Shown here: positions 5,009-28,423 of the stretch, one piece after another | Position numbering within the stretch: the first letter of the stretch is position 1 | Layout of the letters: the number at the start of each line of letters is the position of its first letter | Source of the DNA: a virus | Reading direction: 5' to 3' (one strand) | Length of the DNA: 55,914 nucleotides | IMG/VR virus record: IMGVR_UViG_3300046010_005980 | Location: 1 to 55,914 of that record | The notes under the pieces: generated by a model | The model's database searches: none | What the model saw: only the letters and a program-made list of their open reading frames with translations | What the model was told of the DNA's origin: nothing | Made by a program: the position numbers and the translations under genes

Positions 5009-5192
5009 TGGTTCCCTCAATCTCGGCGATGATGGCGCGGGCTGTTGAGCAACCGCACTCACCCGCAATCTCCCGCAGCGCCTCCACCGCCTTCGCCAGA
5101 TTGGCGGTCAGGGTTTCGATGCGGTCGGCGGCAGCGATGGTGTCTTTGTTGCCGCGACCCCGCAGTCGGGCGAGTAGTCTTTCGTCAGTCAT
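4998..5192 (-). CDS. Small coiled-coil-like phage protein
   Basis: A 64-residue protein made mostly of one amphipathic helix (IAAADRIETLTANLAKAVEALREIAGE). It shares the DRIETLT / LAKAVE pattern with the next gene upstream (DRIEALT, LAKAVELLKEA), so the two look like relatives by partial duplication. The ATG overlaps the upstream stop by four bases (ATGA). Confidence 0.65.
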   Translation of the reverse strand: MTDERLLARLRGRGNKDTIAAADRIETLTANLAKAVEALREIAGECGCSTARAIIAEIEGTNAP

Positions 5193-5635
5193 GTCTGCTC
5201 TCCCTCAATCTCGGCCAGCGTGGCGTCAATGCGGCGGCACAGTTCCATGTCTCGCTCCCACTTACGCTCGTAGACTGGATGCTCGTCCTTCGGCCATTCG
5301 TGGGTGACATACTCCTCAAGGTCTTGCCGCGCCTCCTTGAGCAACTCCACCGCCTTCGCCAGCTTGGCTTCAAGAGCATCACCCCTGCGGTCCGCTTGAC
5401 GGATCATCGCCTCTTGGTTCTTGTTCATAGCCTCCAGCTCCTCCGCATAGGCCTCGGCCTCCTTGGCGTCAGCACGGGCGGCTTCGAGTTGCTCGGTCAG
5501 GGCTTCGATGCGGTCGGCTTGCTTATGACCGTCCGCAAAGCCCACTGCATATGCCGCTCCCTTCTTGAGATCGGCGTGCGTGGGCGTGGCGGCGGGGTTG
5601 TGGGCGTGCCACCGTTGAACGGGGTTGTCACTCAT
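5189..5635 (-). CDS. Coiled-coil phage protein
   Basis: A 148-residue protein. After a short N-terminal segment (NPVQRWHAHNPAATPTHADL) there is a long Ala/Glu/Lys-rich coiled coil from about residue 40 to 110, and then an acidic tail with RRIDATLAEIEGE. The C-terminus resembles that of the downstream 64-residue gene (AIIAEIEG). Likely an oligomeric or partner-binding protein. Function unknown. Confidence 0.7.
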   Translation of the reverse strand: MSDNPVQRWHAHNPAATPTHADLKKGAAYAVGFADGHKQADRIEALTEQLEAARADAKEAEAYAEELEAMNKNQEAMIRQADRRGDALEAKLAKAVELLKEARQDLEEYVTHEWPKDEHPVYERKWERDMELCRRIDATLAEIEGEQT

Positions 5636-13817: not shown

Positions 13818-13830
13818 TTCCGTTCTCCGT

Positions 13831-13861
13831 TGTGTGAGTGGGGCGACGTTGCCGCCGCCCC
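13831..13861 (-). repeat. 31-base intergenic repeat with GCAA-loop hairpin, copy 1
   Basis: Identical to 14729-14759. On the minus strand GGGGCGGCG, loop GCAA, CGTCGCCCC pair with one G-U. It lies between a stop codon and the ribosome site of the next gene. It could be an RNA-processing or stability element or a weak terminator. Confidence 0.7.
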
Positions 13862-14715: not shown

Positions 14716-14728
14716 AGTGTGCTCCTGC

Positions 14729-14759
14729 TGTGTGAGTGGGGCGACGTTGCCGCCGCCCC
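14729..14759 (-). repeat. 31-base intergenic repeat with GCAA-loop hairpin, copy 2
   Basis: Exact copy of 13831-13861, again between a stop codon and the next ribosome site. Identity over 31 bases of non-coding DNA, while flanking genes differ, points to recent duplication or selection. Confidence 0.7.
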
Positions 14760-14767
14760 TGTTGAGA

Positions 14768-15172
14768 TTAAGCGTGGTGCTCAAGTGCGTTGGATGCGAG
14801 ACGCTTCATCATGTCCGTCAGCGGGTTGATGAAGTGCTCGTCCATCCCCATGTCCTTGGCCCGATCCATGACGCGACCCAGCATCAGCATGAACTCTTCG
14901 TGCTCGAGCTCGGTCTTGGACTTGAGGCCGTCAACGTAGGTGTGAGCCTCGGTCAGGCTGTCCGAGATCAGCGCCGCGTCGTCGCCGTAGAAGGACTTGT
15001 AGGTGTACTGCGAGTCGTCCCGAACCTTGAAGCTGACCTCGATGCAGGTCTTCCGCCAGTCCTTGGTCGAGACCGAGAGCGACACCTCCGGGTCTATGAA
15101 GTCCCGAGCCTTGAGCCGGAACTGCAGTGCCAAGACTGCGCCGTGGAGTGCTTGTGCGTTGATGTTTGTCAT
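14768..15172 (-). CDS. Phage protein of 134 residues, unknown function
   Basis: Starts MTNINAQALHGAVLALQFRL with an AAGGA site. Strand-rich centre (VSLSVSTKDWRKTCIEVSFK), then helices (HEEFMLMLGRVMDRAKDMG). It is the first gene of the second leftward group, so its promoter should lie in the adjacent structured region. The frame stays open further upstream, but that part falls in the non-coding region and lacks a ribosome site. Confidence 0.65.
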   Translation of the reverse strand: MTNINAQALHGAVLALQFRLKARDFIDPEVSLSVSTKDWRKTCIEVSFKVRDDSQYTYKSFYGDDAALISDSLTEAHTYVDGLKSKTELEHEEFMLMLGRVMDRAKDMGMDEHFINPLTDMMKRLASNALEHHA

Positions 15173-15307
15173 TTGCCGTTTCCTTCTTCGAGTTAGACCG
15201 TCGATCATCGAACGGTCGTTCCCACCTTGCGAGAACGCCCCTTCGCGAACATAGCACCCTGAAAAGTCAAGATTCGGCTTTGTGCATGTCTGTTCTTGCA
15301 ACTGATC

Positions 15308-15355
15308 TTGGTCCGCCCGCGCTGAGCCTGCGAAGCGCGGTTAACAGCGGACCAA
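15308..15355 (+). ncRNA. Two-stem motif, copy A
   Basis: Outer stem TTGGTCCGC / GCGGACCAA (nine pairs), one bulged C, inner stem CGCGCT / AGCGCG, ten-base loop, and a seven-base 3' internal loop GTTAACA. The internal loop and its flanks are identical in copy B, while paired bases change together. Confidence 0.6.
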
Positions 15356-15418
15356 CACCCAAGAAGAACTGATATGCGCAAAGGTGAATCGACCCCCTTG
15401 CGGGGTTGACTTTTCGAT

Positions 15419-15457
15419 GTCGCAGGGCCGTCGCCCTTTTGGCGGCGGCAATGCGAC
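15419..15457 (+). other. Long hairpin with internal loop
   Basis: GTCGCA / TGCGAC outer stem, a GG/AA internal loop, then GCCGTCGCC / GGCGGCGGC (nine pairs with one G-U on the plus strand) around CTTTT. It lies between the two copies of the two-stem motif. Confidence 0.55.
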
Positions 15458-15525
15458 TGGGTGATATGGTAAGATGGCTCGGGGCGGAGCATGGTGGGAC
15501 GGTCGTTTGATGATAGATAGAAGAC

Positions 15526-15565
15526 AGGCCCGCCCGCGCCCCCGGGCGCGGTTAACAGCGGGCCT
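15526..15565 (+). ncRNA. Two-stem motif, copy B
   Basis: Same plan as copy A: outer stem AGGCCCGC / GCGGGCCT, bulged C, inner stem CGCGCC / GGCGCG with a short CCCG loop, and the identical GTTAACA internal loop. Relative to copy A, one T-A pair is now C-G and the inner T-A pair is now C-G, so both changes keep pairing. Confidence 0.6.
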
Positions 15566-15591
15566 TCCACTTTGCCATGGCAATGGCAAGT

Positions 15592-15628
15592 CCCCATGCT
15601 GCGCAGCTATGCTGCGACTGGCATGGGG
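15592..15628 (+). other. Hairpin with 8-bp base
   Basis: CCCCATGC pairs exactly with GCATGGGG, enclosing a second stem CGCAGC / GCTGCG. Directly followed by the tandem ACTTTCACCT repeat. Confidence 0.55.
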
Positions 15629-15930
15629 TTATACTTTCACCTTACTTTCACCTCTCCCCTTGGGCCAGCGCTCCCGGGGTAACTGGACCCAAAGTCCACC
15701 GAAATCCGCTCAATGCGGATGAGGGGGACCCCCCTTTTTGGGGGTGGTTCCGCCCGGCGGCCGGTATATTACTGGTTTTACAAATTCATTCGTCCCTAAA
15801 TCCATTGGCCAAGGCCCAAGTACCAAGTCCCGCACAAATTATATACAACCTAATTTCATTCGGACTTGTTGACAACCAACAACACCTAGACTACCACTGA
15901 AATAGAACCGCGGCCCAAGGAGCTTTGTCC

Positions 15931-16269
15931 ATGCCACTTTTCCGCAAGAAGCCTGTCATGATCGAGGCGGTGCAGTTTGAGCGCTTAACTCTGCTCGAGG
16001 GTGATGTGTACAACATCCAGTTCGACATGTCGGAGTCTTTGCCCAAGTGGGTGCGGAACGCGATCATCGACGACATTCTCTGCCCAAACTTCAAGGACGG
16101 GAAAACTTTGGTGGTTACGACGCTGGAGGGGGAACACATTGTTTCGCCGGGCGACTGGATCATCTGCGGCGTGAAGGGTGAGTTGTATCCCTGCAAGCCT
16201 GATATTTTTGCCATGACTTACGATCCTGTTGACGAGCAGGACGTCGAGGTCACGGGCGTAGCAATCTGA
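15931..16269 (+). CDS. Conserved small phage protein with PGDWIICGVKGE motif
   Basis: A 112-residue protein of a very common phage family of unknown role. MIEAVQFER near the start, LEGEHIVSPGDWIICGVKGE and YPCKPDIFAMTYDPV near the end are its signature. AGGAG lies seven bases before ATG 15931; an in-frame TTG six bases earlier is too close to the site. First rightward gene after the structured region. Confidence 0.8.
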   Translation: MPLFRKKPVMIEAVQFERLTLLEGDVYNIQFDMSESLPKWVRNAIIDDILCPNFKDGKTLVVTTLEGEHIVSPGDWIICGVKGELYPCKPDIFAMTYDPVDEQDVEVTGVAI

Positions 16270-16279
16270 GGAGAGAGAC

Positions 16280-16567
16280 ATGCCACTGAAGTACAAAGAA
16301 GACGCCGACTTCGCTGCCCATAACCAGCGGGCGAACGACACGGCGGAGCGGGAGCTGAAGGAGATGCTTGCTCAGATCGAGTCTGCCATCGAGCAGAAGA
16401 AGGATGCGTCGCGTGACGAGAGCGACATCTACACTGTCGCAAAGAGCAAGGGCTACAACATCCGGGCGCTCAAGCGGCTGGTCAAAGAACGCCAGAGGGA
16501 CGCGGAGGAACTCCGTGAGGAGGTGGACGCTTTGCAGCTATACAAGCAGCTTGTTGGTATGATATAG
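16280..16567 (+). CDS. GapR-like DNA-binding protein (DUF2312)
   Basis: A 95-residue protein matching the GapR/DUF2312 pattern: an N-terminal helix (AQIESAIEQKKDASRDESDI), YTVAKSKGYNIRALKRLVKE and DAEELREEVDALQLYKQLVG. In alphaproteobacteria GapR clamps overtwisted DNA ahead of replication and transcription. The phage copy lacks the usual longer N-terminus. GAGGAGAGAGAC precedes the ATG and a strong terminator follows. Confidence 0.75.
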   Translation: MPLKYKEDADFAAHNQRANDTAERELKEMLAQIESAIEQKKDASRDESDIYTVAKSKGYNIRALKRLVKERQRDAEELREEVDALQLYKQLVGMI

Positions 16568-24455: not shown

Positions 24456-25928
24456 ATGAGTCTCGAAACACTTCCAGAAGCAGCCCTCAAAGAGCTGCTT
24501 CTGCTGACAGAAGCGAAAAAGAGGCTGGACCTGCGCGATAAGGCGCAGGACAGCTTCATGGCGTTTGCCCACCACGTCTACGAGAACTTTATCGAGGGCC
24601 GACACCACCGAATCATTGCCGAAAAGCTCGAGCGCGTGGCGCGCGGGGAGCTGAAGCGGTTGATCATCAACATGCCGCCTCGTCACTCGAAGTCGGAGTT
24701 CGCCTCGTTCCTGATGCCTGCGTGGTTCTTGGGCCGGAACCCGAAGCTCAAAATCATTCAGGCCACGCACAACACCGAGCTTGCCGTCCGGTTTGGCCGC
24801 AAGGTCCGAGACCTGATTGACGACCCCAAGTACAAAGAGATTTTCCCCAAGACGAACCTGAAGGAAGACTCGAAGTCCGCGGGCCGATGGCAGACGGACC
24901 ATCTCGGCGAGTACTTTGCGGCCGGTGTTGGCGCAGCTGTGACAGGTCGCGGCGCGGACCTTTTCATCATCGACGATCCGCACTCCGAACAGGACGCCTT
25001 GTCCGACACGGCGTTTGATCACGCCTACGAATGGTACACCTCTGGCCCCCGTCAGCGTCTGCAGCCCGGCGGCGCGATCATCGTCGTTATGACCCGCTGG
25101 GGGAAGAAGGACCTGACCGGCCGCCTGATACAGGCACAGGGCTCGGACATCATGTCGGACCAGTGGGAGGTCGTGGAGTTCCCGGCCATCATGCCGTCCG
25201 GAGACCCTCTCTGGCCGGAGTTCTGGGAGAAGAACGCCCTCCTGTCGATCAAGGCGTCGCTGCCTGCAGCCAAGTGGTCGGCACAGTGGCAGCAACAGCC
25301 AACGACATCTGACGCAGGCATCATCCGCAAGGACTGGTGGCGGATGTGGGAGAAAGAGGATGTTCCTCGTCTGGACTACATCCTTCAGGCCTACGATACG
25401 GCCTTCTCGAAGAAGGAGAGCGCCGACTATTCGGCGATCACCACGTGGGGAATCTTCAAGCCGGAGATCGACGGGCCCGACAACATAATCCTTCTGGACG
25501 CCCAGAGGGGACGATGGAGCTTTCCGGAGCTAAAGCAGGTCGCTTTTGACGAGCACGAGTACTGGCAGCCTGATATGGTTCTTGTCGAAGCCAAGGCCAC
25601 AGGACAACCGCTCATCGACGAGTTGCGCCTGAAAAACATTCCTGCCCTCGGGTTCTCCCCGGGCGGCCGGGGCGGTGGCCGAGACAAGGTGAGCCGGATG
25701 CACATGGTCGCGCCGCTCTTTGAGGCGGGCATGGTCTGGGCCCCGGAGGCCAAGAGTTTCTCGGAAGATGTGATCGAAGAGGTGACCTCTTTTCCCAATG
25801 GCGATCACGACGACTTTTGTGATAGCATGACGCTGGCATTAATGCGTTTCCGTCAGGGTGGTTTTGTGGCACTTGAGGGCGAAGACGTAGGGGATGATCT
25901 TATCCCACGCAAACGGGAGTACTACTGA
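24456..25928 (+). CDS. Terminase large subunit
   Basis: A 490-residue DNA-packaging motor. The ATPase has NMPPRHSKSE at residues 72-81 (Walker A variant) and LFIIDDPH at 159-166 (Walker B). Coupling follows in VVMTRWGKKD. The nuclease domain has Asp304 (AYDTAF), Glu368 (LVEAKATG) and an Asp cluster near 441-446 (GDHDDFCDS). Length and motif order match phage terminases. It ends in a four-base-type overlap with the portal (TGATG). The small subunit is far upstream, at 11160. Confidence 0.95.
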   Translation: MSLETLPEAALKELLLLTEAKKRLDLRDKAQDSFMAFAHHVYENFIEGRHHRIIAEKLERVARGELKRLIINMPPRHSKSEFASFLMPAWFLGRNPKLKIIQATHNTELAVRFGRKVRDLIDDPKYKEIFPKTNLKEDSKSAGRWQTDHLGEYFAAGVGAAVTGRGADLFIIDDPHSEQDALSDTAFDHAYEWYTSGPRQRLQPGGAIIVVMTRWGKKDLTGRLIQAQGSDIMSDQWEVVEFPAIMPSGDPLWPEFWEKNALLSIKASLPAAKWSAQWQQQPTTSDAGIIRKDWWRMWEKEDVPRLDYILQAYDTAFSKKESADYSAITTWGIFKPEIDGPDNIILLDAQRGRWSFPELKQVAFDEHEYWQPDMVLVEAKATGQPLIDELRLKNIPALGFSPGGRGGGRDKVSRMHMVAPLFEAGMVWAPEAKSFSEDVIEEVTSFPNGDHDDFCDSMTLALMRFRQGGFVALEGEDVGDDLIPRKREYY

Positions 25929-28423
25929 TGGCTGTCGCACCTCGTATGGCAGGTTCTTTGACTGACCGCGGCTTTATGCAGGGCGGGATGGACGAAGGCG
26001 TTCCGGATGTCGAGTTCTCGATGCCGATGGCCGAGGACTTCTCTGGCGGCGCGGTTGTCACGGAAACGGACGACGGAGGCGCGACGGTGCAGGGCATGGC
26101 GGAGGTCCTCGCGGCGCTTGAGGCCGAGGTTCAAATCCCCCACGACGCCAACCTCGCAGAATATCTCGACGACGCGTACCTCGGCGAGATCGCGTCAGAC
26201 CTCACGGCCTTCTACGAAGACGACCTCCTGTCCCGGGAAGAGTGGGAAGAGGCCTACACCAATGGTCTGGACCTGCTTGGCGTCAAGACCATCGAGCGTA
26301 CTGAGCCCTTCCAAGGCGCGTCCGGCGTGACCCACCCTCTGATCTCCGAGTCGGTCACCCAGTTTCAGGCGCAGGCCTACAAAGAGCTTCTGCCCGCTGG
26401 CGGACCCGTCAAGACTGGCGTCATGGGTCTGAGGGACCCGGAGCGCGAGTCGCAGGCATCGCGCGTTCGGGACTTCATGAACTACCAGATCACCGACGTG
26501 ATGGAAGAGTACGATCCAGACATGGATCAGCTGCTGTTCTATCTCCCCCTCTCCGGCTCCTGCTTCAAGAAGGTGTACTGGGACGTCGGTCTGCAGCGGG
26601 CTGTGGCCAAGTTCATCCCGGCGCAGGACCTTGTCGTCCCCTACATGGCCACGGACTTGTACACAACGCCACGGGCCACGCACCGACTGCGGATGGACAA
26701 GAACGAAATCCGCAAGATGCAGGTTGCCGGGATGTACCGGGACATCGACCTGATCTCCAGCGACGAGCCTGTCGATCAGGTTCGCGAGAAGGTTGACGAG
26801 CTGCAGGGCACGTCTAAGACATACACCGACGACACCTACACGCTGCTCGAAATGCACGTGAACCTCGACCTTGAAGGCTTCGAGGACCTCGATCCTGAGG
26901 GAGAACCTACAGGAATCGAGCTTCCGTACATTGTCACCATTGACCGTGCCTCGTCCAAAATTCTGTCGATCCGCCGTAACTTTGAGGAGGGGACCGAGCT
27001 GGCCAAGAAGCGCCAGTACTTCGTCCACTACAAGTTCATGCCGGGTCTGGGCTTCTACGGCTTCGGTCTGATCCACATGATCGGCGGGCTCGGCCGCGCG
27101 GCGACGTCGATCCTCCGTCAGCTGATTGACGCCGGAACGCTGGCAAACCTCCCGGGTGGCTTTAAGGCCAAAGGTATCCGGGTTCGCAACAGCGACGAGC
27201 CTATCCGGCCGGGCGAGTTCCGCGACATCGACGCCCCCGGCGGAGACCTCCGCAACTCGATCATGCCTCTGCCGTACAAGGAGCCGAGCGCAACCTTGGC
27301 TCAGCTGCTTGGTAGCCTGATCGAAGCGGGTCGCCGCTTCGTCTCGCTGGCCGACGAAAAGACCAGCAACATGAACCAAGAGGCCCCTGTCGGGACCACT
27401 GTGGCCCTGCTGGAGCGCGGCACGAAGGTTATGTCGGCGATCCACAAACGCCTGCACTATGCCCAGAAGACCGAGTTCCGCATCCTCGCCCGCATCTTCG
27501 CGGACAACCTGCCGCAGGAATACCCCTACGAGGTTGCCGGGGCCGAGCGCACGGTGTTCGCGGCGGACTTCGACGACCGCATCGACGTGATCCCGGTCAG
27601 CGATCCGAACATCTTCTCGATGGCCCAGCGGGTTACTCTGGCCCAGACGCAGCTCCAACTTGCCCAGTCGGCCCCGCAACTGCACAACCTGCATGCCGCA
27701 TTCCGGCGCATGTATCAGGCGCTTGAGGTCCAGAACATCGAAGAGCTGCTGCCCGCCCCTCCGGAGCCGCAGCCGACGGACCCGGTCACCGAGAACGCCC
27801 GTATCCTAATGGGCGAACTGGCACAGGCCTTCCCTGATCAGCTGCACGACATCCACATCGCCCTTCATGTGGCCTTCATGAAGACCCCGCTGGTCTCCAC
27901 GTCGCCGACGGCGATGGGCGTGTTCTACGCCCACATCCTCGAGCACATTGCGCTCAAGGCCCGCAACGACGTTCAGGCCCAGATCATGCAGCTCATGGAA
28001 AGCGCGGAGGCGCAAGCGATGGCTGGACGGGCCAACCCGCAGCTGGTGCAGCAGATGCTCATGCAGGCGCAGCAGCAGATGCAGGACCCGGCCCAGATCG
28101 AGCAGCTTGTCGCAATTCGTCAGAAAGAGCTGATGGACGAGCTGCTGCCGATGATCTCGCCGCAGGGCCCTGATCCGATGGCCGACCCGTTGGTGATGAT
28201 CCGCATGCGGGAACTCGAGTTGAAGGGCAAGACCGAAGAGCGCAAGACCGAGATGGAGAAGGCGCAGCTTTTGCTGGACGCCGCCAATCAGAAGCAGCGC
28301 GCCACCACCGACGCCGCCCGTCTTGAGCTGCAGGAGCAGATCGCGGACGAGCGCAACGAGGTCAATCGTGAACGGATCGAGGTCCAACGACAGTCGTCCG
28401 CAGCAAAACAGAGGGCCTTCTGA
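25928..28423 (+). CDS. Portal protein
   Basis: An 831-residue protein, directly after the large terminase. [32 protein letters not shown] and [13 protein letters not shown] are typical of podovirus portals, which form the twelve-fold ring for DNA passage. The last 200 residues are Gln/Met-rich helices ([20 protein letters not shown]) and a coiled coil, forming the long barrel seen in large portals. One base is shared with the next gene's start. Confidence 0.9.

Follow-up and report, generated by a model that had tools for sequence, protein, structure and literature searches.

The gap between two diverging sets of phage genes raises the question of what a duplicated two-stem motif belongs to and what it does there. 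The window analyzed here, a 55,914-nucleotide stretch covering positions 1 to 55,914 of the IMG/VR virus record IMGVR_UViG_3300046010_005980, holds both motif copies within a gap of about 750 nt, from which a leftward gene (14768-15172) and rightward genes (15931-16269 and 16280-16567) diverge. Copy 1 (15308-15355, + strand) reads TTGGTCCGC-C-CGCGCT(GAGCCTGCGA)AGCGCG-GTTAACA-GCGGACCAA and consists of an outer stem (15308-15316/15347-15355), a bulged C (15317), an inner stem (15318-15323/15334-15339), and a 3' GTTAACA loop (15340-15346). Copy 2 (15526-15565, + strand) forms a hairpin reading AGGCCCGC-C-CGCGCC(CCCG)GGCGCG-GTTAACA-GCGGGCCT, with the outer stem at 15526-15533/15558-15565, the bulged C at 15534, the inner stem at 15535-15540/15545-15550, and the loop at 15551-15557. 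A sequence-only reading had proposed this common plan, noting that the loop and its flanks agree over 16 bases and that at least two pairs are compensatory. The plan is exact at both copies, the shared 16-mer is GCGCGGTTAACAGCGG, and the copies differ by three compensatory changes (outer T-A to C-G, outer T-A to A-T, and inner T-A to C-G). The RNA folding z-scores are -4.2 for copy 1 and -4.0 for copy 2, with no shuffle equalling either, and the two-stem, C-bulge context around GGTTAACAG arises at a rate of 0.004 per site with shuffled flanks. As two copies within one genome constitute weak evidence by themselves, homologues and the surrounding structure were sought.

Both copies are arms of one structured noncoding RNA of about 430 nt; the sequence-only reading had listed membership of a larger RNA among its options, without noticing that the two copies share one. 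The core of this RNA (15200-15628, + strand) comprises 153 pairs in 13 helices in the consensus fold on the alignment with its homologue L133. Domain 1 is closed by a stem spanning 15205-15513 (15205-15230/15489-15513, then 15236-15241/15481-15486 and 15250-15259/15459-15468), as indicated by the consensus fold and pair counts. The motif-1 arm (15260-15416; helices 15260-15268/15408-15416 and 15271-15297/15364-15390) carries copy 1 at its tip. Beside it stands a hairpin in which every pair is invariant (15391-15407; 15391-15396/15402-15407), and the domain-1 junction contains another, with two pairs doubly changed (15419-15457; 15419-15435/15441-15457). On the 3' side of copy 2 follow a hairpin with one double change (15571-15590) and the final hairpin of the core (15592-15628), where one A-U pair is replaced by U-A in L008 and by C-G in L133; all these elements are on the + strand. 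The two arms are unequal: module 1 is located at the tip of a long stem, module 2 on a short hairpin. Relative to shuffles, the intergenic gap folds with z-scores of -6.9 (15241-15900) and -10.9 (15173-15800), compared with -0.5 for a coding control.

Relatives were found by pattern and protein scans of viral contigs: four close ones (L003, L008, L011, and L013) and a single distant homologue (L133). The core (15190-15640) is 99.8% identical in L003 and 97.1% identical in L008 and L013, with a 331-nt stretch 99.7% identical across these three contigs, while identity of the neighbouring genes is lower (90.6-90.9% for the left gene and 78.5-93% for the other compared genes). L133 is 78% identical to the window over the core. 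On the alignment containing L133, 99.2% of the pair cells are kept and 19 of the 153 pairs are changed on both sides, compared with a shuffle mean of 5.8; none of 500 shuffles reaches 19, and slid structures give 0-2. The double changes are spread over nine of the 13 helices, and outer pairs of copy 2 have changed on both sides in L008 and in L133. The survival of pairs through double changes in these two contigs bears out the earlier suggestion of a conserved RNA structure. A protein-coding reading of the region is rejected: indels of 1, 2, 4, and 5 nt in L008 and L133 break the frame, so that no reading frame is conserved. The fold of 15200-15628 is regarded as nearly certain, and its assignment as a previously undescribed large structured phage RNA is well supported.

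The folding strand is revealed by a strand-neutral procedure, in which G-U pairs were forbidden so that both strands were treated alike, and isolated mismatches within helices were counted in seven motif-bearing contigs. G.T mismatches number 17 and A.C mismatches 2, and the + strand is the better folder in all seven; the RNA is therefore assigned to the + strand, reading toward the rightward genes. Such a bias favours an RNA over a double-stranded DNA site. Transcription is inferred from this bias and from conservation in the absence of expression data, and neither a promoter nor a terminator of the RNA's own has been identified.

The twin module recurs in other phages. Contigs L104, L124, L132, and L134 were first picked solely for holding GGTTAACAG twice, the stems, the C bulge, and the remaining RNA being outside that search; a covariance model built on the motif (R1) picked up L104 and both copies in each of the other three. 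Outside the core, the four contigs have no evident similarity to the window, and no blastn match was reported. Their outer stems include GGATGC/GCATCC and GCTGGC/GCCAGC in L134 and GATTGC/GCAATC in L104, and the inner stem of L104 copy 1 has only three pairs (CAC/GTG). L004 has a single copy, which caps a different long-stem RNA (z -12), and this shows that a pair of modules is not obligatory. The absence of homologues, or homologues with broken pairs, would have refuted the original proposal; neither is the case, as L008 and L133 keep the pairs, and L124, L132, L134, L104, and L004 keep the module on unrelated stems. Among 35 contigs with paired GGTTAACAG, both copies stand in the two-stem context in eight, L104 has one strict and one relaxed-stem copy, and 26 have none. 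The twin copies are about 200-225 nt apart in the window, L003, L008, L011, L013, L133, L124, L132, and L134, and also in L104.

Thirteen distinct copies satisfy the definition of the module: an outer stem ending G-C, C-G; a bulged C; an inner stem starting C-G; and a 3' GTTAACA. In these, 90.3% of the cells are paired, 31 cells carry double changes, and covariation scores 0.428 (0.120 when shuffled and at most 0.075 when slid). The core GC-C-C opposite G-GUUAACA-GC is invariant, both GTTAACA loops of the window being identical in 13/13 copies, and the base two positions ahead of the loop varies. Most copies were found with loop-containing patterns, and loop invariance is partly a matter of selection; still, a loop-blind scan of 1.49 Mb of viral DNA on both strands yielded nothing but GTTAACA/C twins, apart from plain direct repeats (L005, L027, and L083). 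The same twin module sits in different large RNAs of unrelated aquatic phages, so that the RNA around it probably counts for less than the module itself. Another RNA module, GCGATAG...GAGTAG...CATCGCC, is shared by L133 (4580-4674), L132 (1480-1562), and L138/L139 (3975-4083, reverse-complement numbering). In L132 and L133 it follows motif copy 2 on the 3' side, and L138 has it without the GTTAACA motif, a distribution that amounts to module swapping between phage RNAs. A Shine-Dalgarno-like GACGAAGGAG also recurs in intergenic RNA regions (twice in L138 and once each in L132 and L141).

In the window, the rightward genes run on to the terminase large subunit (24456-25928) and the portal (25928-28423). 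Among the first of them past the RNA, 16280-16567 codes for a small phage protein whose DNA-binding domain is GapR-like (Pfam PF10073, E 6e-12). In L004, L124, L132, and L134, the RNA lies immediately upstream of the terminase small subunit gene, and leftward genes diverge from it. The slot of the RNA is occupied by a different structured sequence in some relatives of the window (L138 and L139, z about -8; L141, z -2.7), and L100 and L102 have no comparable RNA there. A conserved element 3' of the RNA (GGGGTAACTGGACC...GGGGGACCCCCCTTTTTGGGGG, 15665-15745, strand not given) is present also where the RNA is replaced (L138, L139, and L141). A promoter-like site for the rightward genes, TTGACA-N17-TACCAC (15869-15897, + strand), is located downstream of the RNA and has the same spacing in L003, L099, L100, L102, L133, L139, and L141; in the form TTGACA-N17-TACCA(A/C), such a site stands between the RNA and the rightward genes, and contigs have it whether or not they contain the RNA. 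A sigma-70 consensus scan did not report the site at 15869-15897. Since the site follows the RNA and is found in RNA-less contigs (L099, L100, and L102), the rightward genes need no RNA leader. A 41-bp direct repeat, 93% identical between 13822-13861 and 14719-14759, occurs in or near the leftward genes and also in L003, L008, and L011.

The lack of a known family, as first proposed, is upheld by Rfam 15, which at the gathering score gives no match to GOLLD, ROOL, OLE, or any other family for the window, L133, L008, L138, L141, L100, or L102, and at relaxed thresholds no credible match for the window region, L004, L104, L124, L132, L134, or L184. A match to SOX2OT_exon2 is spurious and lies on the opposite strand. 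A DNA similarity search of isolate phages and plasmids returned no match to the RNA, the motif is absent from the terminase-nearest isolates (Pelagibacter phages EXVC031P, HTVC027P, and HTVC023P; also 023Pt_psg01 and DSL-LC04), and a literature search for the RNA or the motif found nothing relevant. On alphaproteobacterial genomes, R1 gave four weak matches (E 0.004-0.009), all without the GTTAACA loop, and R2 gave none; nor did R2 match in 0.86 Mb of terminase relatives and isolates. Pattern matches in L195-L197 and L237-L239 lack the window RNA; most fall in coding-like sequence, and they are apparently due to chance. Several intergenic gaps of isolated pelagiphages and of a related phage fold strongly (z to -8.6) without the two-stem motif (L256 12672-13219, HTVC027P; L258 16153-16477, 023Pt_psg01; L255 3638-3974, EXVC031P), and those of HTVC027P and 023Pt have in common GATCCCA...AGGGATCAG followed by a hairpin. 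The Oscillospiraceae contig L163 contains a tandem array of CCGCGGTTAACAGCACAAAACCC... units (5070-5320).

As to function, the preferred reading, to which a probability of roughly 0.4 is given, is that the twin modules constitute docking sites, mainly for each other; both docking and function are inferred. The RNA would act as a separate, trans-acting transcript (a transcript of its own being inferred), and the modules, each a 7-nt/1-nt internal loop, would serve as its docking sites. As GUUAAC is self-complementary, the other module is the simplest partner. The exposed GUUAAC loops might form a 6-bp loop-loop helix, either from arm to arm within one molecule or between two. Counted in favour of this best explanation is the all-or-none occurrence of the twin module in otherwise unrelated RNAs, L104 being the exception. 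Loop-loop pairing is beyond the reach of a covariation test because the loop is constant in all copies found. A broader claim, possible though less likely than not, is that of a new superfamily of large modular phage RNAs whose defining feature is a transplantable twin three-dimensional module (GUUAACA facing C) rather than any sequence; by means of it, the RNA would close upon itself or assemble RNA-only dimers or larger complexes during infection. Any role in infection is inferred.

Docking has against it that the closing pairs and the bulged C are invariant as well; simple loop-loop pairing has no need of this, and protein binding accounts for it equally well or better. The main rival, possible though on the unlikely side, has each of the twin modules binding one molecule of a protein, of phage or host, as in the U1A pre-mRNA, with the large RNA as a scaffold or sponge. 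Invariance of all core positions is expected of a shape-specific site, the module occurs in unrelated RNAs, and one copy is enough in L004; however, the self-complementary hexamer would have to be coincidental, there is no known partner protein, nor was a protein identified whose place next to the RNA is conserved across all families. An RNA that captures tRNA-Asn through its loop is the least credible of the readings, even though CGGUUAACAGC is the exact reverse complement of a common tRNA-Asn(GUU) anticodon arm and 47 of the 50 stretches returned by a genome scan for the paired 11-mer have tRNA-Asn genes. The module leaves only about 7 nt unpaired, the position two bases before the loop is not conserved, and a palindromic loop matches GUU/AAC by construction. 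Moreover, ARAGORN detects no tRNA genes in the window, L004, L008, L104, L124, L132, L133, or L134.

Position suggests two further roles. A cis-acting leader for the late operon of packaging and structural genes, such as an antitermination element of the HK022 put type, would fit the co-orientation of the RNA with the rightward genes, its placement where leftward and rightward genes diverge, and its direct proximity to terminase small subunit genes in four contigs. It is nevertheless improbable: the window family retains the promoter-like site between the RNA and the genes even in RNA-less contigs, and about 430 nt far exceeds the size of put elements. The same adjacency to terminase small subunit genes, together with the strong inverted repeats, would suit a DNA-level element extruding hairpins, i.e., a replication origin or a packaging or recombination site. 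This is held to be quite improbable given the 17:2 ratio of G.T to A.C mismatches, which indicates that one strand folds, although a single-stranded DNA form is not excluded.

Mutual docking of the modules has parallels in known systems, as do its rivals. The guanidine-II (mini-ykkC) riboswitch has two hairpins with identical self-complementary loops that dock on each other; unlike the window RNA, for which Rfam has no match, it is cis-regulatory and uses tiny terminal tetraloops. The U1A pre-mRNA element (PIE) likewise presents two 7-nt loops, each opposite one unpaired base, but it is eukaryotic, its loop sequence is different, and its protein partner is known. The HK022 put antitermination RNAs are phage RNAs with two stem-loops near the operon start, whereas they are only about 70 nt long and have different loops, and in the window a promoter-like site separates the RNA from the genes. 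The same GTTAACA-opposite-C internal loop, with the same closing pairs, occurs in L184, one of the three stretches without tRNA-Asn genes, which was set aside as a repeat dispersed in Actibacterium mucosum; 119 other genomes of the family do not have it. Its hairpin, CAGCCG-GTTAACA-GCGCC(GAA/GTA)GGCGC-C-CGGCTG (821-853 and 1036-1068, with more copies in L198-L208), opens the repeat and has compensatory changes of its own. In contrast to the module, the outer and inner stems are swapped, and the repeat has about 12 dispersed chromosomal copies and is not a phage RNA; the resemblance may be convergent.

Large structured phage RNAs form a very short list, with functions still unresolved. The window RNA and its kin constitute a further independent set in uncultivated phages, where an invariant, defined, and testable module recurs in otherwise unrelated RNAs, so that short transcripts plus a handful of mutations can answer what ornate phage RNAs dock with. 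OLE and GOLLD have symmetric palindromic kissing loops, some of them invariant and others switching the palindrome, and both GOLLD and ROOL carry symmetric kissing loops (PMC12286853). In OLE, a palindromic kissing loop links two RNA chains (PMC12286853). OLE is a bacterial RNA, mainly of extremophiles, and the Rfam scan of the window has no OLE match. GOLLD and ROOL form homo-oligomeric RNA cages with kissing loops, whereas only a self-complementary loop has been demonstrated for the window RNA; they are often located near phage tRNA genes, which the window lacks. The window RNA, unlike these two, is found in uncultivated viral contigs and absent from the isolate phages searched, has no Rfam match in sequence or structure, and carries the twin 7/1 internal loop. 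All three are large, elaborately folded phage or prophage RNAs of unknown function, and, though not a member of the known families, the window RNA may work like these large ornate phage RNAs.
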